Assembly (NCBI RefSeq): GCF_019970045.1
Contig: NZ_JAHXYI010000001.1
Location: 62,001-126,000, forward strand
DNA length: 64,000 bases
Direction: 5' to 3'
Source: Chryseobacterium sp. GVT01B
Lineage (GTDB): Bacteria; Bacteroidota; Bacteroidia; Flavobacteriales; Weeksellaceae
The notes under the pieces are model-generated. The model was given only the letters and a program-made list of their open reading frames with translations. It searched no databases and was not told where the DNA came from. Position 1 is the first letter of the stretch; each line of letters opens with the position of its first letter. Positions 14,565 to 31,141 of the stretch are shown here, in pieces. A program made the translations under genes and the position numbers.

Positions 14565-14582
14565 CAAAAAATTTTAGACAAC

Positions 14583-15203: not shown

Positions 15204-15346
15204 TGGGTTATATGGTATGTAACCTTTAATAAGTTTTCTAATTGTTTTTAATCACCATCTATTGAATAATAAAATATTGTGATTCATATAAATCCTATAT
15301 TTTATCTATGTTTTGCATGCTTTTATTTTGATTCTCAGACTCAAAA

Positions 15347-15362
15347 CTAAACCATCGTGTAG
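15347..15362 (+). promoter_or_regulatory. LuxR-type box upstream of the ThiF-like gene (degenerate copy)
   Basis: CTAAACCATCGTGTAG matches 11 of 14 arm positions of the palindrome CTACACT-N2-AGTGTAG found near 17000. Its centre (15354.5) is exactly 30.5 bp before the -7 element TATTTTTG. The boxes of the acyltransferase and barrel genes have the same spacing, which makes chance similarity unlikely. Confidence 0.6.
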
Positions 15363-15384
15363 TCAAAATTAGGAGGCATAAACC

Positions 15385-15392
15385 TATTTTTG
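15385..15392 (+). promoter_or_regulatory. -7 promoter element of the ThiF-like gene
   Basis: TATTTTTG fits TAnnTTTG exactly, 17 bp upstream of the ATG at 15409. There is no TTTG at the -33 position. The LuxR-type box covers that region, as expected of an activator-dependent promoter. Confidence 0.65.
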
Positions 15393-15408
15393 TATTAAAA
15401 TAACAGCA

Positions 15409-16155
15409 ATGGAAGCAAAATATTCTCGAAACAGGTTATACGTACAGGAAGAAGAGCAAAAAGCAATTAAGAATTTTTCTATTCTCCTTGCAGGAAGTGG
15501 TATAGGCAGCAATATTGCAGAATGTGCGCTTCGTTTTGGTTTTGAAAATATTACCATTGTGGATGGTGATACTATTGAACAGTCTAATCTGAACCGGCAA
15601 AACTACACCCATCAGGATATTTCTTCCTACAAAGCAGAAACATTATACCATCGGCTGAAAAGCATTAATCCAAAGGCCAATATCCGGTATCGGAGCGAAT
15701 TTATCACACCGGATAACGTTCATGAAATCATTGGTGATCATGATATTGCTATCAACGCCCTGGATTTTTCAAGTAATATTCCTGTGGTATTTGACAGAAT
15801 ATGCCAGGAAAAAGGAATGCATGTTCTGCATCCTTATAATCTCGGGTGGGGAGGTTTAGTGGCAGTAATAGAACCTAATGGGCTTGCACTTGACATCCTT
15901 TCTGATGATAATTTCAATGAGCTCAAAATGGTAGAATACATCGCCGGTTATCTGCGATTTTGGAGAACTCCCAATGAGTGGCTTGAAAATATTATAGACG
16001 ATTATAAGAAGGAAAAAGAAAATCTTCCTCCTCCCCAATTGGCCATTGCTTCATGGATCGTTGCGGGAATGTGTACACACGTAATGTTCAAAATAGCCAC
16101 CGGAAAACCCCATAAAACTTTCCCACAGTTTTATATGAATGCGATTTCCGAATAG
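15409..16155 (+). CDS. ThiF/HesA-family E1-like adenylyltransferase
   Basis: Rossmann-fold enzyme of 248 aa. The nucleotide loop is LLAGSGIGSNIAECALRFG (about 27-45), then IVDGDTIEQSNLNRQ with the catalytic Asp, Asn and Arg of the E1 superfamily (about 51-65), and the DIAINALDFSSN region (about 113-124). It lacks the paired CxxC zinc motifs and the rhodanese domain of MoeB/ThiF. Members adenylate a C-terminal carboxylate of a small protein or peptide. Its promoter has a LuxR-type box, which ties it to the acyltransferase and lanthipeptide genes downstream. Its substrate there is unknown, and peptide or acyl-amino-acid activation is a guess. Confidence 0.85.
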   Translation: MEAKYSRNRLYVQEEEQKAIKNFSILLAGSGIGSNIAECALRFGFENITIVDGDTIEQSNLNRQNYTHQDISSYKAETLYHRLKSINPKANIRYRSEFITPDNVHEIIGDHDIAINALDFSSNIPVVFDRICQEKGMHVLHPYNLGWGGLVAVIEPNGLALDILSDDNFNELKMVEYIAGYLRFWRTPNEWLENIIDDYKKEKENLPPPQLAIASWIVAGMCTHVMFKIATGKPHKTFPQFYMNAISE

Positions 16156-16167
16156 CTACCTGTGCGT

Positions 16168-16926
16168 TTAAATCAACTTGTAATTTGTCGCATAGGATAA
16201 TGCTTCAGTAATATTACTTACGCCCATTTTATCAAATAGCTTTCTTCTGTGGAATTTTACCGTATCACCTGTTACGTAAATCTTATCTGCAATTTCATTG
16301 ATGGTAAGTCCCTGGGCATATAATCTTAATATCTCGGCTTCTCTTTCTGAGAGCTTCACTTTTTCCTCTTTTATCCATCTGTTGTCTTTCAGATCATAGT
16401 TCCAGATTTCATCTGTTCCCTGCTTTACAATAGAAATATTTCCGGATGCATGGTTGTGGGACAATGATACAATACACATGGCCTTCCACATTTTACCCTC
16501 TGAAGATAAGAAAAGAGGAGTGAGCTTGTGGTTGATAAGGATGGTATTTTTACTTTCATTGACTAAATGAAAATCATAAGAAATTGTATAGAGCTTTCGC
16601 TCATGTACGGGCAGATTCTCATAGAATTCAAATCCTACTTCATTGATTTTAAACAGCAAATCCAGGTCTTCTTTTTTCACATGCCTGAAATAGAAGGCAT
16701 AGCCCATTGTTTCTACCTCTTTGGGAGTATGATCACAAAGGAATAAAGGATTATCCGAGACATATTCAAAATTCTGTTTCTGATAATCTATAACATACAA
16801 ACTCATATAAGTGATCCTGGCAAATGCTTTAATCACTTCAAGATAATCAGAGGTCTGGTTATTCTCTGATTCTGAGATTGTATCAATACTGTTTTTATTT
16901 GAAAAGAATTTTCCAATCTCTTCCAT
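16168..16926 (-). CDS. PAS-LuxR transcriptional regulator of the peptide island
   Basis: Protein of 252 aa. An N-terminal PAS-like sensor region (about 30-150, with YVIDYQKQNFEYVSDNP and FYFRHVKKEDLDLLF) precedes a C-terminal LuxR helix-turn-helix (about 188-248). The latter includes LSEREAEILRLYAQGLTINEIA and VKFHRRKLFDKMGV. It lacks the classical acyl-homoserine-lactone-binding domain. It is divergent from the LuxI/FeeM-like gene, with two perfect palindromes in the 125-bp gap, and is the natural candidate to bind them. It may sense the acyl product or a bound cofactor through the PAS fold. This is inference. Its 3' end faces the ThiF-like gene 12 bp away. Confidence 0.87.
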   Translation of the reverse strand: MEEIGKFFSNKNSIDTISESENNQTSDYLEVIKAFARITYMSLYVIDYQKQNFEYVSDNPLFLCDHTPKEVETMGYAFYFRHVKKEDLDLLFKINEVGFEFYENLPVHERKLYTISYDFHLVNESKNTILINHKLTPLFLSSEGKMWKAMCIVSLSHNHASGNISIVKQGTDEIWNYDLKDNRWIKEEKVKLSEREAEILRLYAQGLTINEIADKIYVTGDTVKFHRRKLFDKMGVSNITEALSYATNYKLI

Positions 16927-16958
16927 AGTTAAGTTTTTAAGGTACAGTTTTTAGGTTA

Positions 16959-16974
16959 CTACACTTTAGTGTAG
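16959..16974. promoter_or_regulatory. LuxR-type palindrome 1
   Basis: CTACACTTTAGTGTAG has perfect 7-bp arms around a TT spacer. It lies in the divergent gap, 28 bp (centre to centre) from palindrome 2 and 33 bp before the regulator start, so it could serve either gene. Confidence 0.85.
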
Positions 16975-16986
16975 ACTTTAAGGAAT

Positions 16987-17002
16987 CTACACTAAAGTGT
17001 AG
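16987..17002. promoter_or_regulatory. LuxR-type palindrome 2
   Basis: CTACACTAAAGTGTAG has perfect 7-bp arms. Its centre (16994.5) is 30.5 bp before the -7-like element at 17025 of the acyltransferase gene. This puts it near -42 from the expected start of transcription, the classical position of LuxR-type activators. Confidence 0.85.
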
Positions 17003-17024
17003 CATATCCCACTATTCAGTGTAA

Positions 17025-17032
17025 TAATTTTA
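17025..17032 (+). promoter_or_regulatory. -7-like promoter element of the acyltransferase gene
   Basis: TAATTTTA differs from TAnnTTTG only at the last base and is 19 bp upstream of the ATG at 17052. It is at the same distance from palindrome 2 as the -7 elements of the other two box-linked genes. Confidence 0.55.
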
Positions 17033-17051
17033 CTATAAAGATAAAAAAAAT

Positions 17052-17696
17052 ATGGAACATCTTAACTTTTATTCTTTAAGTAATAAAAACTTATACGAAT
17101 TAGCAGAATTTGTTGTTACCGAAAACTTTAATCATCATGAAAGTTATTCTGATACGGATCAGTTTAAGGCTGAAGTAGAAGATATCTATCATGAGGAAAA
17201 GAACTTTAAAAAGTCTAAGATTTTTGTTTCCAGAGATCACGAAGATAAGATCAATGGTTCTATAAGAGTTTTTAAATGGAATCATAAGGATGTTCTTCCT
17301 TTGGAGAAACTGTTCCATATCAATCCGTCTTCTTTTATCAAAAATAAAACGACCAACATTTGGCATATCGGAAGATTTGCTATTAAGAAAGGAATTGATA
17401 AAACAGGTTTCGGAATATTCAAAACACTAATGGCTTATGCAATCAACGAGGTTTGTCAGAATAAAAATTCTGTTGCTATCGCTGAATGTGATGCCAAGCT
17501 TCTGAAAGTCCTTAAGCTTATGGGAATAGAGGCTATTACCTTAGCAGAGCCCATTCATTATCTGGGTTCTGAAACAATCCCTGTAATGCTTACTTATAAC
17601 GGGCTAAAAAAATTCCTTGATAAGAACTATCATTTGATGTCAACACCGGAAGTAAGCGCCCTACACCAAAGTGTAGTATTACAACAAACCGCCTAA
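17052..17696 (+). CDS. LuxI/FeeM-like N-acyltransferase (GNAT fold), probable signal synthase
   Basis: Protein of 214 aa with the order of motifs seen in autoinducer and N-acyl-amino-acid synthases. GSIRVFKW (about 73-80, beta-4) is followed by LPLEKLFHI, then IWHIGRFAIKKG (about 109-120, the counterpart of the E-x-S-R-F motif). A helix GIFKTLMAYAINEVCQ, the segment SVAIAECDAKLLKVLKLMGI (about 142-161) and a C-terminal strand IPVMLTY follow. Known family members make acyl-homoserine lactones or N-acyl amino acids from acyl-ACP. The product here cannot be read. It is divergent from the PAS-LuxR gene and preceded by two palindromes, as in a LuxI/LuxR pair. Palindrome 3 lies within its last codons. 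Confidence 0.72.
   Translation: MEHLNFYSLSNKNLYELAEFVVTENFNHHESYSDTDQFKAEVEDIYHEEKNFKKSKIFVSRDHEDKINGSIRVFKWNHKDVLPLEKLFHINPSSFIKNKTTNIWHIGRFAIKKGIDKTGFGIFKTLMAYAINEVCQNKNSVAIAECDAKLLKVLKLMGIEAITLAEPIHYLGSETIPVMLTYNGLKKFLDKNYHLMSTPEVSALHQSVVLQQTA
17662..17677. promoter_or_regulatory. LuxR-type palindrome 3, inside the end of the acyltransferase gene
   Basis: CTACACCAAAGTGTAG has one arm mismatch. Its centre is 38 bp from palindrome 4, against 28 bp between palindromes 1 and 2. The difference is 10 bp, about one helical turn, so both pairs would be bound on the same DNA face. Confidence 0.75.
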
Positions 17697-17699
17697 AAC

Positions 17700-17715
17700 T
17701 ACACTTCCGTGTAGC
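17700..17715. promoter_or_regulatory. LuxR-type palindrome 4, upstream of the outer-membrane barrel gene
   Basis: CTACACTTCCGTGTAG has one arm mismatch. Its centre (17707.5) is exactly 30.5 bp before the -7 element TACTTTTG at 17738. The spacing is the same as at the ThiF-like and acyltransferase promoters. Confidence 0.82.
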
Positions 17716-17737
17716 AGCATTCAAAACACAACATTCT

Positions 17738-17745
17738 ACTTTTGA
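17738..17745 (+). promoter_or_regulatory. -7 promoter element of the barrel gene and probably the lanthipeptide operon
   Basis: TACTTTTG fits TAnnTTTG exactly. Transcription should begin near 17750, so the in-frame ATG at 17742 would fall upstream of the transcript and the ATG at 17763 must be the start. Confidence 0.7.
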
Positions 17746-17762
17746 AATATAAAATAACAATC

Positions 17763-20159
17763 ATGACAAAGAAATACTTAATACCGTTATTATCCTTTTT
17801 AGGAATGGGCATTCACCTTAATGCTCAGAGTATCTCGGGTAAAGTATCTGATGAAAAGGCAGCCAATATTTCTTATGTGGAAGTAGTTTTGTTAGCAGGA
17901 AATGATAAATTCTCAACGATCACTGATGAAAACGGACTTTTCTCTATCAAACTTCCAAAAGCCGATTCTTATAAAATGGAATTTTTCCTGAATGGAAGCA
18001 AAGTATACGAAGGAAATGAAAAAATAGAAGGAGAGATTACAAGAAATTATACGATTAAAGAAAACCAGCCGGAAAGTAAAGAAATCCAGGCAATCAGTCT
18101 GACAAAAAAGAAAAAACTGGTGGAAAGAAAAATAGACCGTCTTGTTTTCAATGTAGAAAATTCGGTTGCAGCAACAGGAGGCACTGCATTGGACGCTTTA
18201 AAAACAACTCCACTGGTTCGCATCCAGGATGAAAAGGTTTCAATCGTTGGAAAGGGGGAAGTTCTGGTCATGATAGACGATCGTATTCAGAGAATGTCTC
18301 CGGATGATTTGTCAAGTTTATTAAAATCAATTCCTTCAGACAATATCCAGTCTATTGAAGTCATCACTACTCCACCGGCGAAATACGATGCAGAGGGTGA
18401 CAGCGGACTGATCAATATCAAATTAAAAAGAGGAAAACCGAATTCCTGGAATGCCAATATCGGAGGCAGCTATACTCAAAAAACATATGCAGGAGGCGGT
18501 CTTCAGGGAGCATTTAATTATAACCGTAACAGGCTGTCTTTACAGCTAACCGCCAATACCAATTCTCAGAGACTCCGCACGACATCTGACAGTAAAATTT
18601 ACTATCCGGATGAGCTATGGATCCTGAATGTCAAAAATAAATCTGAAGAGAATAATCTTGGGTTGGGACTTGGCATTGACTACAAAATATCGGATAAATG
18701 GACAACAGGGGCAAAATATCTGGGCAGTTTTACCAGAAACACCTCATCAAACAGTCCTTTTACCTCAAGGTTTAATTCTGCCGGAGCTGTGAATTCCTAC
18801 ATTACATCTGATGTGGATGCCAACAATAAGCCTAATATGAATTCTCTTAACTGGTACAATACCTTTAAAGTAGATTCTGCCGGGACCAAAATCACCACTG
18901 ATTTTGATTATTTCCACTACAGAAAGAGTGATTACAACTTTTATGCAGGAAATGAGCTGGATCCTCAAAGGAATATTCTGCCGGGAAGCTTTTTCTCAGC
19001 TACGAATACCAATGTGAACCGTATTGAAAACTATTCCGGAAAAGTGGATGTGGAAATGCCGTTGAAATGGGCTTCTTTAAGCTTCGGAGGGAAATATACC
19101 TATACAAATACGAACAATGACCTTGTTGTTCTGGATCATAAGACCGGTACTCCCGTTTTAAATACCGATCAGTCGAACATCTTTAATTATAAGGAGCATA
19201 ACGAAGCATTATATGTTTCTGCAAGCAAAAAGCTAGGCGAAAAATGGGAAACCCAGGCTGGTCTTAGAATGGAAGCAACCCAGACAACCGGATATTCGCA
19301 TAATCTGAACCAAACCAACAAAAATGATTATGTCAAATTGTTTCCGACAGCGTATGTGACCTATAATCCTGATGACAAGAATTCTTTCTCACTGAACTAC
19401 AGCAGAAGAATCCGCAGACCGAATTTTGAGTATCTGAATCCGTTTGTGGTGCGTACAAGCCCTTATTATTATTCGGAAGGAAATCCTTTTTTAAAACCTT
19501 CTATCATTGATAATCTGGAGTTTTCGTATGTAAGAAATCAGAAATGGGTATCCTCGGTGTATTATTCTCAGGTATCGGATTTCAGCCAGGACCTTGCTAT
19601 TCTGGACCGGAATACCAATATCACAAGAAGCACACCTTTGAATTATGCCAATACGTATCAGATCGGGGTTTCCACATATTACAATTTTAATAGATGGACC
19701 TGGTGGAACAGCTTTACAGGATTTAATGTGAATTATCAGAATGTAAAGTCAAAAACAGATTTCATCAGTTCAATAGATGGCTACAATGCGTATTTCTATT
19801 CTAATAACGATTTTACATTGAATGAGTCTAAAACTATATTCTTCAGTGCCAACTACGGTCTTCAGCTTCCGGGACGTTATCAGATCTTTCATATCTCAAC
19901 CATGAATATTCTGGATGTTTCTATGAAATTCCTGCTGCTGGATAAGAAACTGACCCTGACTGTTACCGGTATGGATCTTTTAAACGGCCAGCGCCCTCTG
20001 ATCACTTATGAGTCTAATGGTATAAAAACAGACTTCAGCAGCTATGGCGACACAAGAGGAGTAAGGGTCTCTTTAAGCTACAAGTTCGGAAACAAGAATC
20101 TGAAATCTGAACAGCAGAGAAACTTCGGAAACGAGGACGAAAGAAACAGAATTAATTAA
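17763..20159 (+). CDS. TonB-dependent/outer-membrane beta-barrel protein of the lanthipeptide locus
   Basis: Outer-membrane protein of 798 aa. Signal peptide about 1-22 (FLGMGIHLNAQ) is followed by a CarboxypepD_reg-like domain (about 23-95), a plug-like region (about 115-215, with LKTTPLVRIQDEKVSIVGKGEVLVMIDDR as contiguous sequence) and a barrel of the OMP_b-brl_3 type. The C-terminal end is hydrophilic (about the last 20 residues). The start at 17763 is set by the promoter. It is driven by a LuxR-type box, and no terminator is seen before the precursor genes 88 bp on. It may pass the peptide product or its signal across the outer membrane, or serve as receptor or immunity partner. Direction is unknown. 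Confidence 0.85.
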   Translation: MTKKYLIPLLSFLGMGIHLNAQSISGKVSDEKAANISYVEVVLLAGNDKFSTITDENGLFSIKLPKADSYKMEFFLNGSKVYEGNEKIEGEITRNYTIKENQPESKEIQAISLTKKKKLVERKIDRLVFNVENSVAATGGTALDALKTTPLVRIQDEKVSIVGKGEVLVMIDDRIQRMSPDDLSSLLKSIPSDNIQSIEVITTPPAKYDAEGDSGLINIKLKRGKPNSWNANIGGSYTQKTYAGGGLQGAFNYNRNRLSLQLTANTNSQRLRTTSDSKIYYPDELWILNVKNKSEENNLGLGLGIDYKISDKWTTGAKYLGSFTRNTSSNSPFTSRFNSAGAVNSYITSDVDANNKPNMNSLNWYNTFKVDSAGTKITTDFDYFHYRKSDYNFYAGNELDPQRNILPGSFFSATNTNVNRIENYSGKVDVEMPLKWASLSFGGKYTYTNTNNDLVVLDHKTGTPVLNTDQSNIFNYKEHNEALYVSASKKLGEKWETQAGLRMEATQTTGYSHNLNQTNKNDYVKLFPTAYVTYNPDDKNSFSLNYSRRIRRPNFEYLNPFVVRTSPYYYSEGNPFLKPSIIDNLEFSYVRNQKWVSSVYYSQVSDFSQDLAILDRNTNITRSTPLNYANTYQIGVSTYYNFNRWTWWNSFTGFNVNYQNVKSKTDFISSIDGYNAYFYSNNDFTLNESKTIFFSANYGLQLPGRYQIFHISTMNILDVSMKFLLLDKKLTLTVTGMDLLNGQRPLITYESNGIKTDFSSYGDTRGVRVSLSYKFGNKNLKSEQQRNFGNEDERNRIN

Positions 20160-20168
20160 TCAAATATA

Positions 20169-20180
20169 TACTTGCAAGTA
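20169..20180. promoter_or_regulatory. 12-bp palindrome ahead of the precursor genes
   Basis: TACTTGCAAGTA is a perfect palindrome in the 88-bp leader between the barrel gene and precursor 1. It matches the LuxR-type box only weakly (about 9 of 14 arm positions) and has no TAnnTTTG at the expected distance. It may be a different operator or chance. Confidence 0.3.
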
Positions 20181-20247
20181 GGGTCCAATAAAGGTTTTAT
20201 GACTTGAAAAGATAACCAAAAACCAATCAACTAAAAATTTTAAAATC

Positions 20248-20427
20248 ATGCACAAAATTAAATTAACAAAAGGATTACAAATCAACAAAGAGCAAATCAG
20301 CAAATTACAGGAAGAGCAAATGAACAGTCTTAAAGGTGGGGTTAACAGCCTTCAGGCAGCAGCGCAGTCTTGCGGACAGTGTTCTTGCGGTGGAAACACA
20401 ATTGTAAAAACAAGAGCAGCTCAATAA
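20248..20427 (+). CDS. Class I lanthipeptide precursor, copy 1
   Basis: Peptide of 59 aa. The leader (1-31) is charged and helical (KGLQINKEQISKLQEEQM) and ends in the double-glycine site LKGG at 28-31, where a C39 peptidase would cut. The core (32-59) has Cys42, Cys45 and Cys47 and Ser34, Ser41, Ser46, Thr51 and Thr55 as candidates for dehydration and thioether rings. The C-terminus is IVKTRAAQ. It is the first of five tandem copies with repeated spacers, upstream of LanC, LanB and exporter genes, so lanthipeptide identity is strongly supported by context. Confidence 0.9.
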   Translation: MHKIKLTKGLQINKEQISKLQEEQMNSLKGGVNSLQAAAQSCGQCSCGGNTIVKTRAAQ

Positions 20428-20481
20428 TCAGCTTCCAAAATCACATTAAAATAAACAATAACAATCTAAAAATCAACTATC

Positions 20482-20661
20482 ATGCACAAAATTAAATTAA
20501 CAAAAGGATTACAGATCAACAAAGAGCAAATCAGCAAATTACAGGAAGAGCAAATGAACAGCCTTAAGGGTGGGGTTAACAGCCTTCAGGCAGCGGCACA
20601 GTCTTGCGGACAGTGTTCTTGCGGTGGAAACACAATTGTAAAAACAAGAGCAGCTCAATAA
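20482..20661 (+). CDS. Class I lanthipeptide precursor, copy 2
   Basis: Peptide of 59 aa, identical in amino-acid sequence to copy 1. It differs only by silent changes such as CAG for CAA and GCG GCA in the Ala run. It starts 234 bp after copy 1. The identity despite silent divergence suggests selection on the peptide or recent duplication. Confidence 0.9.
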   Translation: MHKIKLTKGLQINKEQISKLQEEQMNSLKGGVNSLQAAAQSCGQCSCGGNTIVKTRAAQ

Positions 20662-20713
20662 TCAGCTTCCAAAATCACATTAAAATAAACAATAACAATT
20701 AAAATCAAACATC

Positions 20714-20893
20714 ATGAACAAAATGAAATTATCTAAAGGACTACAGATCAACAAAGAACAAATCAGCAAGCTTCAGGAAGAGCAAATGAATGGTCTTAAA
20801 GGAGGGGTTAACAGCCTACAGGCAGCAGCGCAGTCTTGCGGACAGTGTTCTTGCGGTGGAAATACAGTAGTACAAACAAGAGTTGCTAAGTAA
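20714..20893 (+). CDS. Class I lanthipeptide precursor, copy 3
   Basis: Peptide of 59 aa. The leader varies (start MNKMKLSKG, and MNGLKGG at the cleavage site instead of MNSLKGG). Core residues 32-51 are the same as in all other copies. The C-terminal tail differs, VVQTRVAK. It starts 232 bp after copy 2. Confidence 0.9.
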   Translation: MNKMKLSKGLQINKEQISKLQEEQMNGLKGGVNSLQAAAQSCGQCSCGGNTVVQTRVAK

Positions 20894-20942
20894 TTCTCAC
20901 AAAAATTTAAAATATTTATATAACAATTTAAAAATCAACATC

Positions 20943-21122
20943 ATGCACAAAATTAAATTAACAAAAGGTCTACAAATCAACAAAGAACAAATCAGCAAGC
21001 TTCAGGAGGAGCAAATGAACAGCCTTAAAGGAGGGGTTAACAGCCTTCAGGCAGCAGCGCAGTCTTGCGGACAGTGTTCTTGCGGTGGAAACACAATCGT
21101 AAAAACAAGAGTAGCATCTTAA
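20943..21122 (+). CDS. Class I lanthipeptide precursor, copy 4
   Basis: Peptide of 59 aa. The leader equals that of copies 1 and 2. The tail is IVKTRVAS. The frame is open from 20883, but the ATG at 20943 matches the other copies in sequence and spacing (229 bp from copy 3). Confidence 0.9.
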   Translation: MHKIKLTKGLQINKEQISKLQEEQMNSLKGGVNSLQAAAQSCGQCSCGGNTIVKTRVAS

Positions 21123-21171
21123 TCAGCCCATCACATTTAAAATAAACAATAACAATTTAAAATTAAACATC

Positions 21172-21351
21172 ATGAACAAAATGAAACTAACTAAGGGTCT
21201 TCAAATCAACAAAGAGCAAATCAGCAAATTACAAGAAGAGCAAATGAATAGCCTAAAAGGAGGTGTTAACAGTCTTCAGGCAGCAGCGCAGTCTTGCGGA
21301 CAGTGTTCTTGCGGTGGAAACACAGTAGTACAAACAAGAATAGCGAAGTAA
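21172..21351 (+). CDS. Class I lanthipeptide precursor, copy 5
   Basis: Peptide of 59 aa with leader start MNKMKLTKG, the invariant core 32-51 and the tail VVQTRIAK. It starts 229 bp after copy 4 and is the last precursor before the hairpin at 21362. Confidence 0.9.
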   Translation: MNKMKLTKGLQINKEQISKLQEEQMNSLKGGVNSLQAAAQSCGQCSCGGNTVVQTRIAK

Positions 21352-21361
21352 TCTTCTCCTA

Positions 21362-21405: not shown

Positions 21406-21432
21406 ATTATATAATCTCAAAGCTCTCAGATC

Positions 21433-22605
21433 ATGCAAAAAGAAAAACTAATCATCTCAGAAATAGAAGAATGTATCCGCAAAAAAGATACTTCCCTTAC
21501 CGGAATCGGTCTTAATAACGGGATTCTAAGCGCTTCAATGTTTTATTATTATCATTATCTAATGACCAAAGAATCAGAATCTTTGGAGTTGGTAACACAC
21601 TACATTGAAAAGTCTCTGTCTGTTTTAACAGAGGATTATAAAAGTCTTCATTTTAATGATGAGATAAGAGAGCTAGGATTATATCTTATGTTCCTGAAAC
21701 AGGAAGAAGTTTTAGACAGCGAAATTGATTCTCTACTGGAAAATATAGATGAAATACTGGAAGAAATACTGATCCAGAAAACAGAGCAGGGAGACCTTGA
21801 TTTAACGAGCGGGTTTCCGAGTTTTGCCAAGTATTTCGTACTGAGAAATCTTAAAGACAAAAAATACCTGATAGAGAAAACCCTGGATAAAGTCATTGAA
21901 CTTACTCAAAACCATGACAGCGGAAACTACTGGAAGTTTGATCTTCGGGATAAGGAAAATCCATATGTGGAACTGGGCTTAGGACACGGAACAACAGGAG
22001 TAATCAACTATTTGTTATTCCTTTATAAAAATAAGATCTACACAAAAGAATCTTTAGAACTCATTCACAAAGGATTATCATTTATCTGGAGCTGTAAAGA
22101 AAGCAGTACTGACAATATTACGCTTTTCCCCTTCAATGCTTTTGAAGATGTCTATATAGATTATCACAATCTCGCATACGGAGAAATCGGAATTGGCTAT
22201 ACTTTTTACAACGCAGGAATTCTCCTAGAAAATAAGGACTATTGCGACAAAGGACTTCATATCTTACTCAATACTACAAAATTTAAAGATACTGATCAGT
22301 CCGCTATCCTGGAGCCGGGATTAATTTATGGTTCTGCCGGATTATCCGCATTATATAAAAACCTTTATCACCTTACAGAACAGGATGCATTTTTAGAGGC
22401 CAAAGAATATTGGCATGAACATCTTCTGCAGTCAAAAAATAATGAAAGTGAAACATGGGCAGGATTCAAAGCCTATTACAATGCAGAATTTGACAATATC
22501 AATATGGCCCTGGGCCAGGGCATAGCAGGAATCGGGATTACCCTGATGAACAATGTCATTAAAACCAATCACAACTACGTTTCATTCTATAATTACGATC
22601 TATAA
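21433..22605 (+). CDS. LanC-like protein 1, lacking the zinc ligands
   Basis: Protein of 390 aa of the LanC alpha/alpha-barrel type, with repeated G-x-G-hydrophobic helix starts. It keeps the motif LGLGHGTTG with His185, equivalent to the GxxHGxxG His of LanC cyclases. The zinc sites are lost: the usual W-C-Y-G is LAYGEIGIG (Ala248), and the usual C-H-G is LIYGSAGLS (Ile298, Tyr299). It cannot bind zinc in the normal way. Its gene overlaps the next LanC gene by 1 bp. It may be a structural or substrate-positioning partner of LanC-like protein 2, which shows the reciprocal loss. Confidence 0.82.
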   Translation: MQKEKLIISEIEECIRKKDTSLTGIGLNNGILSASMFYYYHYLMTKESESLELVTHYIEKSLSVLTEDYKSLHFNDEIRELGLYLMFLKQEEVLDSEIDSLLENIDEILEEILIQKTEQGDLDLTSGFPSFAKYFVLRNLKDKKYLIEKTLDKVIELTQNHDSGNYWKFDLRDKENPYVELGLGHGTTGVINYLLFLYKNKIYTKESLELIHKGLSFIWSCKESSTDNITLFPFNAFEDVYIDYHNLAYGEIGIGYTFYNAGILLENKDYCDKGLHILLNTTKFKDTDQSAILEPGLIYGSAGLSALYKNLYHLTEQDAFLEAKEYWHEHLLQSKNNESETWAGFKAYYNAEFDNINMALGQGIAGIGITLMNNVIKTNHNYVSFYNYDL

Positions 22606-23762
22606 TGGAAACTCTACAATCTCAAAATATCACGACCATTCTTCATGAATACGATCAAAAACTGCTTGATTTTGATTATGGAAATTTACCTGATGGATTG
22701 CTTTATGGAAAACTGGGACTATTACTCTATTTCTTAACACAATATCAAATCTCAGGAAATGACATCTACGTAAACAAAGTCGGAGCTATCCTTGAAGAAG
22801 TCTTTGAGAATGGCAACATGCAAAAAGAAAACAACGTATATACGCTCCCGAATCTATCCAAAGGAATGACCGGACTAGGCATTATCCTGGATTTATTAAA
22901 AAAAGACGGATTAATACAAGACGATTTTGATGACCAGATTACTGACATCGGAGAACTGATCTTCCAGCAATCCGTTACCATGCTGAAGGAAGACAATTAT
23001 ACTTTTTTTGATGGCCCGATAGGAAATCTCCATTATTTCAACACCATCAGAAACGAACAGTACAGCAGCGAAATTGTAAACATCCTTTATGATGAATGCA
23101 TTTCCCATCCCACTCCATTTGAAAACAAGCTGAATGACAGCTATGCAGATGGAATTAACTTAGGATTCAACTATGGCTATCTTTCTATTGTTAATAATCT
23201 TTTGGGTCTTCCGGTAATGACGGAAAAAGCAAGATACATTATTGACACCTGTTTGGATTTCATTATTTCCAATTTTGATGTCCATGAAGTAGAAAATGCC
23301 AGAATATATAAACCTTACAACTACAAAATAGCAGAGAATCTGTTGAAGCCTTTTCACAACAACAGACTTTGCTGGTGCAACAGCGATCTTTCTTTCTCTT
23401 ATCTCCTTTATAAAACAGGTGAAACCCTGCAGGAAACAAAATACAGAGATATGGCCCATGAACTGGGTTTAGAAACTACAAAAAGAAAAGTAATGGCCAA
23501 TACAGGTGTAGAATTTATCCAGTATTGCCACGGAACTTCAGGACTTGTACAGCTGTATCACGAGATTAATGAAAAAGACGCCCATCCGGATTATAAACAA
23601 GCCAAAAGCTTCTGGATAAAAAGATCATTGGAAATCCTGGGAAATGAATTGGACCAGCCATTCACCGAACAGGACAGTAATTTACTCTTTGGAAAAACAG
23701 GAGCCCTGATTGCTCTGAATGACAAAATAGACAAAACTAAATACCTAAAATTTTTACTGTAA
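22605..23762 (+). CDS. LanC-like lanthionine cyclase 2, zinc ligands present
   Basis: Protein of 385 aa with the LanC zinc ligands: Cys258 in LCWCNSD (Cys256 is a second Cys), and Cys308 and His309 in QYCHGTSG. The position of the GxxHGxxG His reads GFNYGYLS, so the active-site His kept by LanC-like protein 1 is missing here. LanC enzymes activate Cys thiols with zinc for addition to dehydroalanine or dehydrobutyrine. The start codon overlaps the stop of the previous gene, implying translational coupling and equal amounts. Two split half-active cyclases acting together is an inference. Confidence 0.85.
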   Translation: METLQSQNITTILHEYDQKLLDFDYGNLPDGLLYGKLGLLLYFLTQYQISGNDIYVNKVGAILEEVFENGNMQKENNVYTLPNLSKGMTGLGIILDLLKKDGLIQDDFDDQITDIGELIFQQSVTMLKEDNYTFFDGPIGNLHYFNTIRNEQYSSEIVNILYDECISHPTPFENKLNDSYADGINLGFNYGYLSIVNNLLGLPVMTEKARYIIDTCLDFIISNFDVHEVENARIYKPYNYKIAENLLKPFHNNRLCWCNSDLSFSYLLYKTGETLQETKYRDMAHELGLETTKRKVMANTGVEFIQYCHGTSGLVQLYHEINEKDAHPDYKQAKSFWIKRSLEILGNELDQPFTEQDSNLLFGKTGALIALNDKIDKTKYLKFLL

Positions 23763-23763
23763 C

Positions 23764-24711
23764 ATGAAAACAAAAAGCATAGGATTACTAGAACTAGGAT
23801 ACAGAAGCGGCAAAGATTCAATCACAGCTCTTAACGATGTAGTTGATTATGCCCTTCATGCAGAGAGATTAGGATACAGCAGATTCTGGCTGGCAGAGCA
23901 TCATTATTCCCACCTCAAGAATCTTGCATTTTCAAATCCGGATATCGTGATTGCCATGATCGCCGGAATGACAGAAAAAATAAGAGTAGGATCCGCAGGA
24001 ACTTCAGTTCCCAGTTATTCTCCTTACGCTGTCGCTACCAATTATAAACTCATCAACAATATATTCAACGGAAGAATAGACCTTGGACTGTCAAAAGGGA
24101 TTCCTGAAAGTGAGCACACCAAAAACCTTTTGAATCCGGACATCCTTGAAAGAGGTACCGGAGTGGTTTTCAAAGAAAATGCCAATGAAATCCACGAATT
24201 GTTTTATTCTGAAGCTGAAAAGAACGAAAAAGAAGGAATTTTAATTCCACCTTACGGCGGACTGATCCCTGATCTCTGGTATCTTTCTTCTTCTTTGAAC
24301 AACCTGGACGAAGCAATCACTTTACACTCAAACTATTGTGTTTCAGCCTTTCACGGAAGCGGAAAATTCCTTGAAAATCTTGAAGATAAAAAAGAAGAGA
24401 TCAACAGATACAGGGATTCTTTTGCACAGCAAAACGGATTTGCTCCTAAAATATCACTGGCTCTGGCGATCAACCTTTCAGAAGTCAACGAAATAAAATC
24501 CGATGCAGAAGAATCCGAATCTTTCAAAATCCTCAACCTCAACTTTGAAGAGCTTTTTGAACTGATTGAAAAACTGGATGAAAAACTGGCTGTTGATGAA
24601 TTCATTTTATATGATACAGAACCTGACAGTGATAAGAAAACAGAAAACGCTGAAATGATAAGCAACCATTACAACCTACAATCTATTCAACATGAAAACG
24701 CAGTTAGATAA
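23764..24711 (+). CDS. Luciferase-like (LLM class) flavin monooxygenase
   Basis: Protein of 315 aa with the LLM TIM-barrel pattern. YALHAERLGYSRFWLAEHHY (about 29-48), IRVGSAGTSVPSYSPYAVA (about 75-93) and GRIDLGLSKG (about 103-112) match the bacterial-luciferase family. It is 1 bp after LanC-like protein 2, and its end overlaps the dehydratase start by 20 bp, so it belongs to the operon. It probably adds a further oxidative change to the peptide using reduced flavin. The modified residue is not predictable. No flavin reductase is encoded nearby. Confidence 0.85.
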   Translation: MKTKSIGLLELGYRSGKDSITALNDVVDYALHAERLGYSRFWLAEHHYSHLKNLAFSNPDIVIAMIAGMTEKIRVGSAGTSVPSYSPYAVATNYKLINNIFNGRIDLGLSKGIPESEHTKNLLNPDILERGTGVVFKENANEIHELFYSEAEKNEKEGILIPPYGGLIPDLWYLSSSLNNLDEAITLHSNYCVSAFHGSGKFLENLEDKKEEINRYRDSFAQQNGFAPKISLALAINLSEVNEIKSDAEESESFKILNLNFEELFELIEKLDEKLAVDEFILYDTEPDSDKKTENAEMISNHYNLQSIQHENAVR

Positions 24712-27700
24712 CATCAATATTGGTTTTATGAGAAACTCTCTGTACTCATTCAAACAATATAACAATATACCGAAAAATACAGCAGATCTTGATCATTTTA
24801 TCCTGGAATTATGGAATGATGAGGTCTTCAGAGAATCTATCTTTTTAGCATCTTATGAGCTGTATAGCGAATGGGCAAGATTATGCCAGGATGATCCGTC
24901 TTTATCTCTGGTAAAGAGAAACAGAATCAACAATTCTATTCTTAAATATTACATCAGAATTACCACCAGATCTACTCCTTTCGGAACTTTTGCTTCCCAT
25001 TCTGCTTTTGAACTCAGCTCAGAAAATAAAAATATTGAAGCAGGAAATATGAACGCTATCCACCGGTATACTACGCTGGATCTTTCTTTCCTGTTTCAGG
25101 TTATAGTATTAATCAACAGAGACTTTCCAGAGGTTCACGAATATGCGCTTAATGACTCAATCTATAAGTTAGGTGATTATTACCGATATATCGAAACCGC
25201 AATACAAAACGAAAAAAGAGTCTATACTTTAAGCTCATTGGAAAAAGATGAACTTCTGGATTTTCTGGTTGAAACGGTGGCTGCCCAATCTTATTCTTTT
25301 GACAATCTGGTGGCTCTGGTTGCAGAAAATGTAGAAGGAGTTTCCGAAGAAGATGCAAAATACTATATTTTCAGCCTGATTGATGCCCAGTTCTTTAAAA
25401 GTAACTTTGATATCTGCCTGAATGAGCACTCTCCTTTGTCTCAGATCATTGAATATTTAAGTTCAAAAAAAGGAATCTATCCTGAACTTGACCGTTATCT
25501 GGAAATCCTGATCAAAATGGAAAACTATATGGAATTGCTGAACTCCGGAGTAGGACAATCTCAGGAATATTACAACGAAATATTTGCACTTGCCAACCAG
25601 TTCTCTATTTTGTATGACAGAAAATATCTCATCAATTCATCCTTAAAAAGGAACCTTGACTTTTCACCTGTTACCAGAGAAGACCTTTCCAAAATCAAAA
25701 AGGGAATCAATACCCTATCATGCTTTTGGGACAAAGGAAGTGAAACAGTGAATGAAAATTTAGAAAAATTCAAGTCTGCCTTCTATGCAAGATATGAAGA
25801 GAGCCTGGTGCCTTTGGTTGAAGTACTGGACAACGAAAGCGGCATTGGATACATCCAGGAACAAAACAGCGAAAACGATTTTTCTTCCCTGTTGGATACG
25901 TTGAGCTGGCCCAATTCCAGTAATGATTCATTTTCTATCACTTACAATAAAAAGATCCATGAATTCTGGAGAAGAATCATCAACAAAGCCAACATCAATG
26001 GAGATACCGCTATAGACCTTAGCCAGCATGACATCAACAGCCTTCAGAATGCAGATGAGGTAAGCCTTGCAAGATCAATGGCTGTCATGATTGAAAAGGT
26101 ATCTGATAAAATAGCCATCTCTTCTGTAGGCGGAACAAGCGGTGCCAACCTTATTGCGAGATTTTCCAATGAAGATGAAGAAATCCTGGCTCCGATGAAC
26201 AGAATCATCAAAGAAGAACAGAATGATAATCACTTTATCTATGCTGAACTGCTTCATTTGCCAGACAACAGAGTAGGAAATATCTTACTGAGACAGGTAA
26301 AAAGAGGAAATCAGCTTTCTTATCTTACCAAGTCTTCAGCTTCGGAAAATACCATTACCCTGACGGATCTTTACATTAAAATGATTGATAAAAGAATCGT
26401 ATTATTCCATAAAGAGCTGAATAAAGAAGTTAAAATTTTCCATTCTACCGCTCATAATTTTGATTATAATTCGCTTCCGGTGTATCAGTTTCTGTGCGAC
26501 CTTCAGCATCAGGATGTTTCTACTGCATTGGTTTTAAATATTGGAGACACCAACTACCTGATGTATGATTATATTCCGCGGATCACGCATGGTGATGATA
26601 TCATCTTCACACCGGCATTATGGAGATTATACCAAAATGAAGTATCTGGAATAAAGACCAAAAACAATACTGAAAGCATTAAAACGGTAAAAGAATACCT
26701 TTCAGATAAAAAAGTAAACCGGTATTTCTTTATTTCCCAGGGAGATAACAAGCTATTGATCGATACGGAAAATGACAACCTTTTATTATTCCTTATTGAT
26801 GAACTGAGATCCAAGGAAACCGTAACCCTTACCGAGTGTCTTTACGATCTTGAGACTGATGAATTCAACAACGAGATTATCATTCCCATGATCAACAGAA
26901 ATTATACAGCATTTAAAACAGAGCTGGACCAGCATCTTTTCAATGTCAATATTTCTGATAATAAATTTATCCCGGGGAACAAATGGTTATACTATAAAAT
27001 CTATTGCGGCAACAAGTTTTCAGACAAAATATTGCAGGATGTATTTCCGGATCTTTTACCTCACCTGAGTGAAGAAGAGCTAATCAAAAAATGGTTCTAC
27101 ATTCGATACAGTGATCCCGACAATCATATCAGACTGAGGTTGGAAATCAATGATAATAAGCTCACTAACACTGCTCAAATCATTACCACTTTCAACGATT
27201 ATTTTGATAAATATATCAGCGAAGGAATCATTAATAAAGTGGAAATGGGAACCTATGACAGAGAATATGAAAGATATGAAGGCGAATTTATTGATACCGC
27301 AGAGCATATCTTCCATTATGACAGTCAATTAACTGTTAATCTGCTTAAAAACATTCCTAATAATGATGACCTCTGGTTATACTCCATCAAAAGTATTGAT
27401 ACCTATTTCGATGTCTTCCAGCTTGATCTGGATAAGCGATATGAGGTGATCAATAAAATCTACAACCAGTTTCAGCGGGAGTTTAATGTAGACAGCAATC
27501 TTAAGAAACAGCTGGATCTGAAATACAGAACGAACCTGAATCTCATCAGCGAGATTGTAGAATCGGATGGCAATCAGTATTTCTCAGAGTTCGTCACTTC
27601 TATGAAAGACAACTGCAAAGAAATAGAAAATCTGAAGACCATTCAAAAAGAAAGACTAGTCAGCAGTTTTATTCACATGCATATCAACAGACTGATCAGA

Positions 27701-27793
27701 TCCAGACACAGAATGCACGAACTGATCATCTATGGCATTGTAGAAAAGTATTATAAAATGAAAATCGGCAAAAGAAAATATCTAGTATCATGA
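24692..27793 (+). CDS. LanB-type lantibiotic dehydratase
   Basis: Protein of 1033 aa, full length for a class I dehydratase. The N-terminal glutamylation domain (about 1-740) has the hallmark TRSTPFGTFASH (about 92-103) and SVGGTSGANLIARFS (about 471-485). The C-terminal SpaB_C elimination domain (about 760-1020) has KWLYYKIYCGNKFSDKIL and WFYIRYSDPDNHIRLRLE. It would use glutamyl-tRNA to dehydrate Ser and Thr of the precursor cores and make them ready for the LanC proteins. It overlaps the monooxygenase (20 bp) and the exporter (4 bp). The single-chain form contrasts with the split LanB of pinensin-type clusters. Confidence 0.92.
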   Translation: MKTQLDNINIGFMRNSLYSFKQYNNIPKNTADLDHFILELWNDEVFRESIFLASYELYSEWARLCQDDPSLSLVKRNRINNSILKYYIRITTRSTPFGTFASHSAFELSSENKNIEAGNMNAIHRYTTLDLSFLFQVIVLINRDFPEVHEYALNDSIYKLGDYYRYIETAIQNEKRVYTLSSLEKDELLDFLVETVAAQSYSFDNLVALVAENVEGVSEEDAKYYIFSLIDAQFFKSNFDICLNEHSPLSQIIEYLSSKKGIYPELDRYLEILIKMENYMELLNSGVGQSQEYYNEIFALANQFSILYDRKYLINSSLKRNLDFSPVTREDLSKIKKGINTLSCFWDKGSETVNENLEKFKSAFYARYEESLVPLVEVLDNESGIGYIQEQNSENDFSSLLDTLSWPNSSNDSFSITYNKKIHEFWRRIINKANINGDTAIDLSQHDINSLQNADEVSLARSMAVMIEKVSDKIAISSVGGTSGANLIARFSNEDEEILAPMNRIIKEEQNDNHFIYAELLHLPDNRVGNILLRQVKRGNQLSYLTKSSASENTITLTDLYIKMIDKRIVLFHKELNKEVKIFHSTAHNFDYNSLPVYQFLCDLQHQDVSTALVLNIGDTNYLMYDYIPRITHGDDIIFTPALWRLYQNEVSGIKTKNNTESIKTVKEYLSDKKVNRYFFISQGDNKLLIDTENDNLLLFLIDELRSKETVTLTECLYDLETDEFNNEIIIPMINRNYTAFKTELDQHLFNVNISDNKFIPGNKWLYYKIYCGNKFSDKILQDVFPDLLPHLSEEELIKKWFYIRYSDPDNHIRLRLEINDNKLTNTAQIITTFNDYFDKYISEGIINKVEMGTYDREYERYEGEFIDTAEHIFHYDSQLTVNLLKNIPNNDDLWLYSIKSIDTYFDVFQLDLDKRYEVINKIYNQFQREFNVDSNLKKQLDLKYRTNLNLISEIVESDGNQYFSEFVTSMKDNCKEIENLKTIQKERLVSSFIHMHINRLIRSRHRMHELIIYGIVEKYYKMKIGKRKYLVS

Positions 27794-29994
27794 AGCTAAA
27801 ATTTATCCCTCAACACGACCAAATGGACTGCGGTCCTGCATGTATCGCAATGGTGGCTTCCTACTTTGGTAAGCAGATTCCGTTACATTTTTTAAAAGAA
27901 AATGCTAATCTATCCAGAGAAGGAGTTAGCTTACTGAGTATCAGTGAACTGTGCGAAGATATCGGATTTGAAACCTATCCTGCGAAACTGACATTGCAGA
28001 CCCTGGATGAAAATGGCAGCCTGCCTTGCATTCTTCACTGGAATAAAAACCATTTCGTAGTGCTTCTTGATGTAAAGAAAAGCCTTATTTCAGGAAAAAA
28101 ACGCTATAAAATTGCCGATCCAAGCCATGGAATGATCTGGCTGAGCGAAAAAGACTTTCTTAAAAGCTGGCTATCAGACGGCGAAACCGGAATTGCTCTT
28201 TTTGTAAGTCCTACCAACAGTTTTTATCAGCAGACTTTCCCGGAAGAAGATAAACTGAGCATTTCTTTTGCTATGAAATATTTCAAAGAGCATAAAAACA
28301 AATTCCTCTTTTTGTCTGGTATGCTTCTTATCGGAAGCTGCCTTAGCCTTGTCTTTCCATTCCTTACACAAACACTTATTGATAAGGGAGTTAACACAAA
28401 AGACATAGACCTTATTACGATCATTCTGATCTCTCAGGTTGTATTATATTTAGGAAGCATTACCATAGAAATTATCAGAAACTGGCTGATGCTTTATATT
28501 GGGACCAGGATTAGCATTTCCATTATTTCAGACTTTCTGAAGAAAATGCTTCTCCTTCCAATGGGCTTTTTTGATACCAAGATGAAGGGAGATTTTACCC
28601 AGAGAATTCAGGATAATGAGAGAATAGAAGATTTTCTTACCTCTCAGAGCCTTATGACCTTCTTCTCTATGGTGACTTTTCTGGTGTTTTTCGGAGTGCT
28701 TTGGTATTATAATGTAACGATTGTACTTATTTACTCATCTCTTACTGCATTATCTCTTGTATGGGCGCAGTATTGGTTAAAGAAAAGAGAAATTCTGGAT
28801 TATTACCGATTCAGAGAAAAAGGACAGAGCCAGGAAAGTGTTTATGAAATCCTGAATGGAGTTTCTGAAATGAAATTAAACCAATTTGAAGACTATAAAA
28901 GACAGGAATGGGAAGGGATTCAGAATAAATTATTCAAAACAACCCTTCGTATTTTAAAAGTAGATCAGTATCAGTTTTCCGGATTTGAATTTCTTAACCA
29001 ATTAAAGAACATTTTCGTTACTTTCTTTGCGGCATTGCAGGTGGTGAAAGGAAATATGACCATTGGTGAATTATTGGCGATATCTTACATCATCGGACAG
29101 CTGAACTCTCCTGTTAACCAAATGATTTCTTTCTTCCGGTCATTACAGGATGCAAAACTGAGTCTTTCAAGACTAAATGAGGTTCAGAATCATGAAGAAG
29201 AGGAAAAAGAAGGCATGAAAGCACTTGAAATCAACAATACATACTCAGAAGAAGAGAGAGGAATTACTTTAAATAATGTTTCTTTCCAGTATGAAGGTCC
29301 AAAATCTCAGTTTGTTTTAAAAGATGTCAATCTGTTTATCCCTGAAGGCAAAGTTACCGCTATTGTTGGTGCCAGCGGAAGCGGAAAGACTACTTTAATG
29401 AAGCTGTTACTGAAATTCTACAATCCTACGCAGGGTACCATTCATTATAACGAAGACGATATCCTCACCTTATCTCCTAAAAGTATACGAGAAAACTATG
29501 GAGTTGTAATGCAGGACGGGTTTATTTTCTCTGACACCATCGAAAGAAACATTGCTACCAGCGAAGTGGAAATCAACACCAGAAAAATGGAAAATGCGGT
29601 AAGAGTTGCCAACATTTCTTCTTTCATTGATAATCTTCCGTTAGGATACAGTACAAAAATAGGAGCTGCCGGCAACGGAATTTCCGGAGGACAAAAGCAA
29701 AGAGTTCTTATTGCAAGAGCAGTCTATAAAAACCCTCATTTTATCATGTTTGACGAAGCAACTTCCGCTCTGGATGCTGAAAATGAGAAGATCATTCATG
29801 ACAACCTTCAGGAATTCTTCAAAGGAAAAACGGTAATTATTGTAGCGCACCGCTTAAGCACCGTAAAAAATGCAGATCAGATTATCGTCCTGAAAAACGG
29901 AGCCGTAGTTGAAAAAGGAAACCACCAGGAGTTGGTCAACAAGAAAGCAGATTACTACAGTCTTGTAAAAAATCAGCTTGAATTAGGCAACTAA
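27790..29994 (+). CDS. Peptidase-containing ABC exporter (C39 bacteriocin type)
   Basis: Protein of 734 aa. The N-terminal C39 peptidase (about 1-130) has catalytic Cys14 (QMDCGPAC), His88 (NKNHFVVLLD) and Asp110 (IADPSHG). A six-helix membrane domain (about 165-450) and an ABC ATPase with Walker A GASGSGKTT (about 527-535), signature SGGQKQR (about 631) and Walker B FIMFDEATSALDAE follow. It would remove the leader after LKGG of the five precursors and export the product across the inner membrane. The start overlaps the LanB stop by 4 bp. No HlyD-type adaptor gene follows, so the path to the outer membrane is open. Confidence 0.94.
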   Translation: MKLKFIPQHDQMDCGPACIAMVASYFGKQIPLHFLKENANLSREGVSLLSISELCEDIGFETYPAKLTLQTLDENGSLPCILHWNKNHFVVLLDVKKSLISGKKRYKIADPSHGMIWLSEKDFLKSWLSDGETGIALFVSPTNSFYQQTFPEEDKLSISFAMKYFKEHKNKFLFLSGMLLIGSCLSLVFPFLTQTLIDKGVNTKDIDLITIILISQVVLYLGSITIEIIRNWLMLYIGTRISISIISDFLKKMLLLPMGFFDTKMKGDFTQRIQDNERIEDFLTSQSLMTFFSMVTFLVFFGVLWYYNVTIVLIYSSLTALSLVWAQYWLKKREILDYYRFREKGQSQESVYEILNGVSEMKLNQFEDYKRQEWEGIQNKLFKTTLRILKVDQYQFSGFEFLNQLKNIFVTFFAALQVVKGNMTIGELLAISYIIGQLNSPVNQMISFFRSLQDAKLSLSRLNEVQNHEEEEKEGMKALEINNTYSEEERGITLNNVSFQYEGPKSQFVLKDVNLFIPEGKVTAIVGASGSGKTTLMKLLLKFYNPTQGTIHYNEDDILTLSPKSIRENYGVVMQDGFIFSDTIERNIATSEVEINTRKMENAVRVANISSFIDNLPLGYSTKIGAAGNGISGGQKQRVLIARAVYKNPHFIMFDEATSALDAENEKIIHDNLQEFFKGKTVIIVAHRLSTVKNADQIIVLKNGAVVEKGNHQELVNKKADYYSLVKNQLELGN

Positions 29995-30016
29995 TCACCT
30001 CTCAATATATTTTTGC

Positions 30017-30045
30017 CCGTTTCACGAATTGTGAAACGGTTTTTA
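30017..30045 (+). terminator. Intrinsic terminator of the lanthipeptide operon
   Basis: CCGTTTCAC (30017-30025) pairs perfectly with GTGAAACGG (30031-30039), followed by a T-run. It is 22 bp after the exporter stop and marks the right end of the island. Confidence 0.88.
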
Positions 30046-30979: not shown

Positions 30980-30983
30980 CTTG

Positions 30984-31067: not shown

Positions 31068-31141
31068 ATGGTGTGGGCAAAAAAAAAGATCCGAACCAGA
31101 GGTTCCAACCTTCTCAATGATTCTAAAATCTTTTAGAATAG

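Follow-up and report, generated by a model that had tools for sequence, protein, structure and literature searches.

In the quorum-sensing system of Linares-Otoya et al. (Nature 2025;646:423-432), a ThiF-type cyclase and an acyltransferase are reportedly joined by a LuxR-type regulator controlling a co-located operon for a secreted product; lysine is said to be acylated and then cyclised with ATP (AclA). In Vibrio, the regulator VqmA fuses a PAS sensor to a LuxR-type helix-turn-helix and is activated by a small signal, 3,5-dimethylpyrazin-2-ol (DPO), that is not an N-acyl homoserine lactone (AHL), and the N-acyl amino acid synthase FeeM and the LuxI-type AHL synthases have a GNAT-related fold in common. 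According to a review (PMC13419125), N-acyl-cyclolysines (ACLs) were discovered in Bacteroidota by Linares-Otoya et al., and the system is widespread in human gut and oral samples. Here, we analyzed a stretch of 64,000 nucleotides of Chryseobacterium sp. GVT01B (the window; contig NZ_JAHXYI010000001.1, positions 62,001 to 126,000), in which a class I lanthipeptide operon is very probably joined to a quorum-sensing cassette of the ACL type. A preliminary description of this DNA knew of no described Bacteroidetes system joining such parts; as far as can be told, the ACL system is this cassette.

The locus consists of a ThiF gene (plus strand), a PAS-LuxR gene (minus strand), an acyltransferase gene and an outer-membrane barrel gene (both plus strand), followed by five precursor genes, two LanC-like genes (LanC1 and LanC2), a luciferase-like monooxygenase (LLM) gene, a LanB gene, a C39 ABC exporter gene and a terminator-like hairpin. 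The genes listed in the preliminary description are open reading frames at or near the positions it gave and belong to the families it named (GerE at 1.1e-15, OMP_b-brl_3 at 5.1e-94, NF038153 and others). Its two-part pair of acyltransferase and regulator stands, but it missed the third member, the ThiF gene at 15409-16155 with a box of its own at 15347. The three cassette genes are as follows (window coordinates).

15409..16155, plus strand: ThiF/E1-like adenylating enzyme of 248 amino acids, AclA-like, predicted N-acyl lysine cyclase using ATP (PF00899, 2.2e-36)
16168..16926, minus strand: PAS-LuxR regulator of 252 amino acids, AclR-like, predicted signal receptor and activator (GerE, 1.1e-15; model; Foldseek)
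17052..17696, plus strand: LuxI/FeeM-fold acyltransferase of 214 amino acids, predicted to acylate lysine (PF21926, 7.6e-5; model and Foldseek)

The cyclase, acyltransferase, LuxR-type regulator and co-located operon of the ACL system are matched here by sequence: an AclA-like enzyme of the ThiF type, an adjoining acyltransferase of modelled LuxI/FeeM fold, a dedicated regulator and, for a secreted product, an operon that has candidate sites for this regulator. The instance in the window precedes a class I lanthipeptide operon, and the locus is most probably a further instance of ACL signalling. Observed directly are the three cassette genes with their families or modelled folds, the way they are linked in relatives, and boxes that keep a constant spacing to TAnnTTTG elements upstream of ThiF, acyltransferase and peptide operon.

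A profile of the ThiF family (45 rows) matched the PDB entries 9egb/9egc over their full length (E 2.6e-137), with all other PDB matches at 3e-17 or worse and tRNA threonylcarbamoyladenosine dehydratases next. The latter enzymes cyclise a carboxylate on their substrate. The entry 9egb, which we take to be AclA of the N-acyl-cyclolysine system, shares 59.7% identity with the window enzyme over 248 residues and is 97% identical to the ThiF protein of Tenacibaculum larymnensis (locus L062), where the gene order is ThiF, LuxR, FeeM-like acyltransferase, a gene of the NusG-family cluster and a nonribosomal peptide synthetase (NRPS) gene. The GxGxxG region and residues D54, N60, R63, K75 and D119 are conserved in the 45 aligned ThiF sequences. 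Mean column identity is 66% for ThiF in this alignment, 72% for LuxR over 46 aligned sequences and 50% for the acyltransferase, each computed on its own row set. Because the ThiF gene belongs to the cassette, the signal is probably a lysine lactam and not a homoserine lactone or an acyl amino acid with an open chain.

For the acyltransferase, a PDB sequence search with the family profile returned a single de novo protein (E 2.9), and therefore a fold search was used. The model (predicted local distance difference test, pLDDT, 86.7; 42-row alignment) found its best solved matches in TofI (2e-8), LasI (3.8e-8) and FeeM (6.5e-8), with other GNAT enzymes close behind. The preliminary description had called the protein LuxI/FeeM-like and was ready to abandon this if a fold prediction or a hidden Markov model search placed it elsewhere; the fold bears it out with TofI, LasI and FeeM on top, and the hidden Markov model of the FeeM-like family, PF21926, scores below its cut-off (23 versus 27 bits, 7.6e-5), although some homologues carry the domain. 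The protein shares the modelled GNAT-related fold of FeeM and the LuxI synthases, but differs from them in lying under the PF21926 cut-off and in matching no PF00765. Among 434 candidates we counted 315 relatives at E 1e-3, and the organism-named sources among the 120 relatives listed were Bacteroidota. An identical protein is found in a Chryseobacterium metagenome-assembled genome (L006) and a 99% identical one in C. sediminis (L007).

These two enzymes also bear on the nature of the signal. If the signal were a different lipid, such as an azlactone or an open N-acyl amino acid, and the ThiF enzyme carried out some other adenylation, this would fit the presence of an N-acyl amino acid synthase (FeeM) among the fold relatives and of tRNA threonylcarbamoyladenosine dehydratases as the next solved relatives of the ThiF protein. 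We nevertheless regard it as unlikely, given that the window ThiF is 59.7% identical to a structure whose near-identical relative sits in a cassette of the same layout. The step from 9egb to the ACL paper, and with it the membership of 9egb in that system, is presumed, which is why we leave this alternative a small share and stop at very probable for the ACL cassette. The products of the published ACL system are N-acyl-cyclolysines, as stated in the review (PMC13419125).

The regulator was modelled with a pLDDT of 89.9 as a PAS-type sensor followed by a LuxR helix-turn-helix, in agreement with the PAS-LuxR assignment made previously. Its closest solved folds are the LuxR-type regulator 3clo (7.8e-14) and the quorum-sensing receptor VqmA (3.8e-8), and VqmA and EL222 (PAS/LOV) outrank RhlR, LasR and SdiA. 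The resemblance to VqmA lies in the fold, but a sequence search with the sensor region at E up to 10 did not return VqmA, and the predicted signal chemistry is a different one. A PDB sequence search with residues 1-180 gave three weak matches at E 0.57 and up and no credible relative.

To describe the cassette in relatives, 80 of 144 confirmed acyltransferase loci were kept. The LuxR gene is divergent from and adjoins the acyltransferase gene in 77/80 loci (gaps of 29-669 bp), and the ThiF gene adjoins LuxR (gap up to 184 bp) in 60/80; in eight Flavobacterium loci it lies 6.4-7.9 kb upstream. The conserved synteny that the preliminary description proposed to look for is seen for acyltransferase and LuxR; the cargo varies. 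Of a sample of 296 family genomes, 44 have ThiF (E up to 1e-50), 43 the acyltransferase (E up to 1e-20) and 42 both, compared to 6.4 expected if independent, a figure uncorrected for kinship. The cassette was also seen in a metagenome-assembled genome labelled Candidatus Zambryskibacteria (L068); because its tree neighbours are Bacteroidota, this contig is probably mis-binned.

The cassette genes and the operon are further connected by palindromes. Four exact copies of CTACAC-N4-GTGTAG and one with a single mismatch occur in the window (0.54 expected at up to two mismatches), and the four exact copies are all those of the 5.15-Mb genome. Outside the cassette, two sites have one mismatch, which is the level of the reversed-pattern control. 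The palindromes before three genes in the preliminary description are these boxes, tying acyltransferase and regulator to the peptide operon; the same type precedes the ThiF gene, which is convergent with the LuxR gene. The sites are listed below.

15347..15392, plus strand: predicted promoter of the ThiF/AclA-like gene, box CTAAACCATCGTGTAG and -7 element TATTTTTG, one mismatch to the composite motif
16959..16974, no strand: AclR-type box, distal, CTACACTTTAGTGTAG, starting 28 bp before the next box
16987..17032, plus strand: predicted acyltransferase promoter, box CTACACTAAAGTGTAG and TAATTTTA, one mismatch to the composite motif
17661..17676, no strand: AclR-type box, distal, within the end of the acyltransferase gene, starting 38 bp before the next box
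17699..17744, plus strand: predicted lanthipeptide operon promoter, box CTACACTTCCGTGTAG and TACTTTTG, exact match to the composite motif

TAnnTTTG is the Bacteroidota -7 element. In the ThiF promoter its first base lies 38 bp beyond that of the 16-bp core, and the box sits where a -33 element would stand, so that regulator binding probably replaces this element. The composite of box and -7 element has its sole exact match in the genome at the lanthipeptide operon; at up to one mismatch only this promoter (0) and those of the ThiF gene (1) and the acyltransferase gene (1) are recovered, and the other six matches have three mismatches each, no better than the reversed-pattern control. A box-driven promoter was also sought for the regulator gene; its best candidate in the genome has three mismatches, equal to that control, and is not claimed.

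Across the related loci, we used an 18-bp pattern, ACTACNCNNNNGNGTAGT, with a complementary variable pair. Allowing up to two mismatches, it was found in 68/77 gaps between LuxR and acyltransferase genes, against 0.1 expected when each gap was shuffled 60 times under a Markov model. This count is partly circular, as the pattern was devised after viewing the window and the intergenic palindromes. The spacings from box to box and from box to TAnnTTTG were not used in devising it. Of the boxes with up to one mismatch, 68% have a partner (up to four mismatches) at 38 bp, compared to 0-6% at other offsets of 20-60 bp; among 69 neighbouring-box distances up to 120 bp, 55 are 38 bp and nine are 28 bp, the latter being the spacing at the acyltransferase promoter of the window. 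Counted from the first base of the 18-bp box, TAnnTTTG starts at exactly 39 bp for 85/217 boxes and at 77 bp (39+38) for 56 others, with an average of 0.07 at other offsets. Among box-bearing promoters, the 39-bp spacing is seen for the acyltransferase in 32/67, for cargo in 34/46 and for ThiF in 20/22. The composite (box with up to three mismatches plus -7 element) occurs 116 times in 72/80 loci and not once in one shuffled copy; these occurrences precede acyltransferase (38), ThiF (34), barrel (19), NusG (5) and other genes (14), or have no gene called in range (6). At 13/217 boxes, the other strand carries a TAnnTTTG whose offset of 14 makes it overlap the end of the box, which could place some regulator-gene promoters under the box. 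This grammar was not found in the literature searched, a search that did not reach the ACL paper itself. A broader proposal, which we put forward tentatively and at less than even chances, is that ACL cassettes act as plug-in controllers whose rigid promoter grammar is common to Bacteroidota families. Twin palindromes would be set 38 bp from each other, with the proximal one beginning 39 bp ahead of the TAnnTTTG -7 element and replacing the -33 element, and a genome's regulon could thus be read from its sequence; here this would mean three promoters for one lanthipeptide, with the barrel as outer-membrane exit of the peptide in the stead of TolC.

By analogy with the published ACL system, from which substrate (lysine), product, ligand binding, activation and density dependence are carried over, the locus would probably work as follows. 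The protein with the acyltransferase fold would N-acylate lysine, and the ThiF-like enzyme would use ATP to close the acylated product into a lactam. The PAS-LuxR regulator would bind the lactam and turn on three promoters: those of the two synthesis genes (ThiF and acyltransferase), whose boxes would result in autoinduction, and that of the lanthipeptide operon. The operon would then yield five near-identical precursors, in which LanB would dehydrate residues, LanC close rings and the LLM enzyme perhaps reduce some dehydro residues; the C39 ABC protein would cut and export the peptides.

Several observations weigh against this reading. The FeeM Pfam score is below its cut-off, and other GNAT enzymes match the acyltransferase fold almost equally (371 chains at E up to 0.001); since they follow so closely, the fold alone does not fix the substrate. 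The regulator aligns with VqmA and 3clo domain by domain only (whole-chain root-mean-square deviation of 14-17). No ThiF gene lies in the fetched stretch of 12/80 loci, some of them cut contigs, and 9/77 LuxR-acyltransferase gaps have no box at two mismatches. Among the 296 genomes, one has the acyltransferase without ThiF and two the reverse, seven (G043, G091, G142, G165, G227, G275 and G292) have the two genes about 11-12 kb apart on one contig, and six acyltransferase matches run over a stop codon. Finally, the review covers just the name and the distribution of the ACL family, and the identity of 9egb as AclA, the gene names and the pathway are presumed.

The operon behind the cassette contains the following features.

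17763..20159, plus strand: outer-membrane beta-barrel protein (OMP_b-brl_3, TonB-dependent-receptor-like; 5.1e-94)
20248..20427, plus strand: LanA precursor 1, GG leader, core with three Cys (NF038153)
20482..20661, plus strand: LanA precursor 2, protein identical to precursor 1 (open frame)
20714..20893, plus strand: LanA precursor 3 (open frame)
20943..21122, plus strand: LanA precursor 4, ATG within a longer TTG frame at 20883-21122 (open frame)
21172..21351, plus strand: LanA precursor 5 (open frame)
21433..22605, plus strand: LanC-like protein 1, apparent zinc ligands missing (PF05147, 2.8e-22; alignment)
22605..23762, plus strand: LanC-like protein 2, zinc-type WC and CHG motifs present (PF05147, 4.9e-18; alignment)
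23764..24711, plus strand: luciferase-like monooxygenase, LanJC-like candidate for a dehydro-residue reductase (PF00296, 1.5e-22)
24692..27793, plus strand: full-length LanB dehydratase, N and C domains (PF04738, 6.3e-90; PF14028, 8.3e-64)
27790..29994, plus strand: C39-peptidase ABC exporter (PF03412, 1.3e-32; PF00664; PF00005)
30017..30039, plus strand: terminator-like hairpin with T tract

The class I assignment is based on the LanB glutamylation and elimination domains (PF04738, PF14028), LanC (PF05147) and the LanA leader (NF038153). Precursor 1, the sole precursor scanned, matched the 'class I lanthipeptide' model NF038153 with 43.6 bits (cut-off 22), and the five 59-residue precursors with GG leaders represent four different proteins. 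Each core contains a single lysine, located internally in precursors 1, 2 and 4 and as the final residue in 3 and 5. For the barrel, the ATG at 17763 is the more likely start than the listed TTG at 17742, as the latter falls inside the predicted -7 element; the protein may serve as outer-membrane exit in clusters for ribosomally synthesized and post-translationally modified peptides (RiPPs) lacking TolC/HlyD. The terminator proposed earlier was recovered as a hairpin, which is weak by itself (one found, 0.4 expected in shuffles). Aligned with the LanC-like proteins of four loci (L006, L008, L030 and L048), LanC2 retains the WC and CHG motifs, presumably zinc ligands as in NisC, and LanC1 has lost both; LanC1 retains an HG motif that is lost from LanC2 of Chryseobacterium and kept in that of Tenacibaculum. 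Judged by these motifs, the two LanC-like proteins look complementary. Neither had a PDB sequence match at E 0.01.

Two papers on Bacteroidota class I lanthipeptides allow a comparison. Leaders of the GG type with an LxLxKx5L motif are described there together with C39 proteases, and LLM enzymes (LanJC) are proposed to reduce dehydrated residues (PMC7268733); the leader in the window, LQINKEQISKL, is close to this motif, with I replacing the second L. A class I lanthipeptide of Chryseobacterium has been produced in E. coli (PMC9993889). The locus shares GG-type leader, LanB, LanC and C39 exporter with the clusters covered in these papers (the pinensin family and ChmABC of Chryseobacterium OV715; PMC9993889, PMC7268733), but adds the ACL-type cassette, the second LanC-like protein, the LLM enzyme and the barrel.

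To survey the cargo of the 80 loci, genes were clustered by similarity and representatives scanned for domains. We found class I lanthipeptide genes, two types of radical S-adenosylmethionine (radical-SAM) maturases, NHLP precursors and NRPS genes, and many loci without a cargo label. NHLP cargo is accompanied by AraC, TolC, HlyD and ABC exporters, with a LanM-type dehydratase gene in 12 loci (domain checked in L043); a giant gene (cluster c24) occurs in six loci, the member in L062 having NRPS domains. On the acyltransferase tree, with labels assigned by hand to 49/81 rows, the lanthipeptide label requires two changes and the five cargo labels eight in all (minimum 4, shuffled mean 26.4). In a quick tree, Chryseobacterium loci with NHLP cargo cluster with Flavobacterium NHLP loci and not with the lanthipeptide loci of Chryseobacterium; because NHLP loci group across genera by cargo, cassette and cargo appear to travel together, a view that rests on this quick tree.

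In none of the 80 loci is the OMP_b-brl_3 barrel cluster (34 loci) accompanied by the TolC cluster (18 loci) downstream of the acyltransferase. This exclusion is weak evidence, since the cargo types track a small number of lineages and several of the loci are truncated. A NusG-family gene cluster follows the cassette in 11 loci (L034, L035, L062, L067, L073, L075, L076, L078, L079, L082 and L083; domain checked in L075), and in five of these the giant c24 gene stands further downstream (NRPS domains checked in L062). Such a NusG-family gene suggests antitermination as a second layer of control.

This variety of cargo also bears on whether the acyl product enters the peptide. GNAT-type maturases fatty-acylate peptides in selidamides. 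One could therefore imagine that the acyltransferase is a tailoring enzyme fatty-acylating the lanthipeptide and that the regulator is an unrelated pathway activator, the more so as the cassette adjoins the operon, each precursor core offers one lysine, and acyl groups on lysine are reported for other lanthipeptides (nostolysamides). We consider this very unlikely: the genes to which the acyltransferase is linked are ThiF and LuxR rather than LanB/LanC, this set also stands in front of NRPS, NHLP/LanM and radical-SAM cargo, and the position of the core lysine is not fixed. Of the two roles left to the acyl product in the preliminary description, signal is probably right and building block is disfavoured, because the cassette also precedes cargo of unrelated kinds, NRPS genes among them. 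A classical AHL LuxI/LuxR pair, suggested by TofI and LasI at the top of the acyltransferase fold search, has next to no chance, as PAS-type receptors outrank AHL receptors in the regulator fold search and the ThiF enzyme is conserved alongside; it was rejected with the 214-residue protein matching no PF00765 (Autoind_synth) and the regulator no autoinducer-binding domain at E up to 1.

Taken as an ACL cassette, the locus connects a class I lanthipeptide with a signal that was recently reported from Bacteroidota, and it provides a sequence rule for likely target promoters. If this is true, the cognate ACL should turn on a peptide that is possibly not made in ordinary culture, and the clusters flagged by the cargo survey (lanthipeptide, radical-SAM, NHLP and NRPS) might be inducible in this manner too.

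Two neighbouring features deserve mention. Just upstream of the ThiF gene, the frame at 14514-15203 resembles an XRE-type regulator by eye, and a similar gene (cluster c17) is present in 8/80 loci. Directly behind the operon, at 30983-31595 of the window, lie five tRNA genes, four for Leu (two anticodons) and one for Gly, which represent a possible insertion hotspot.

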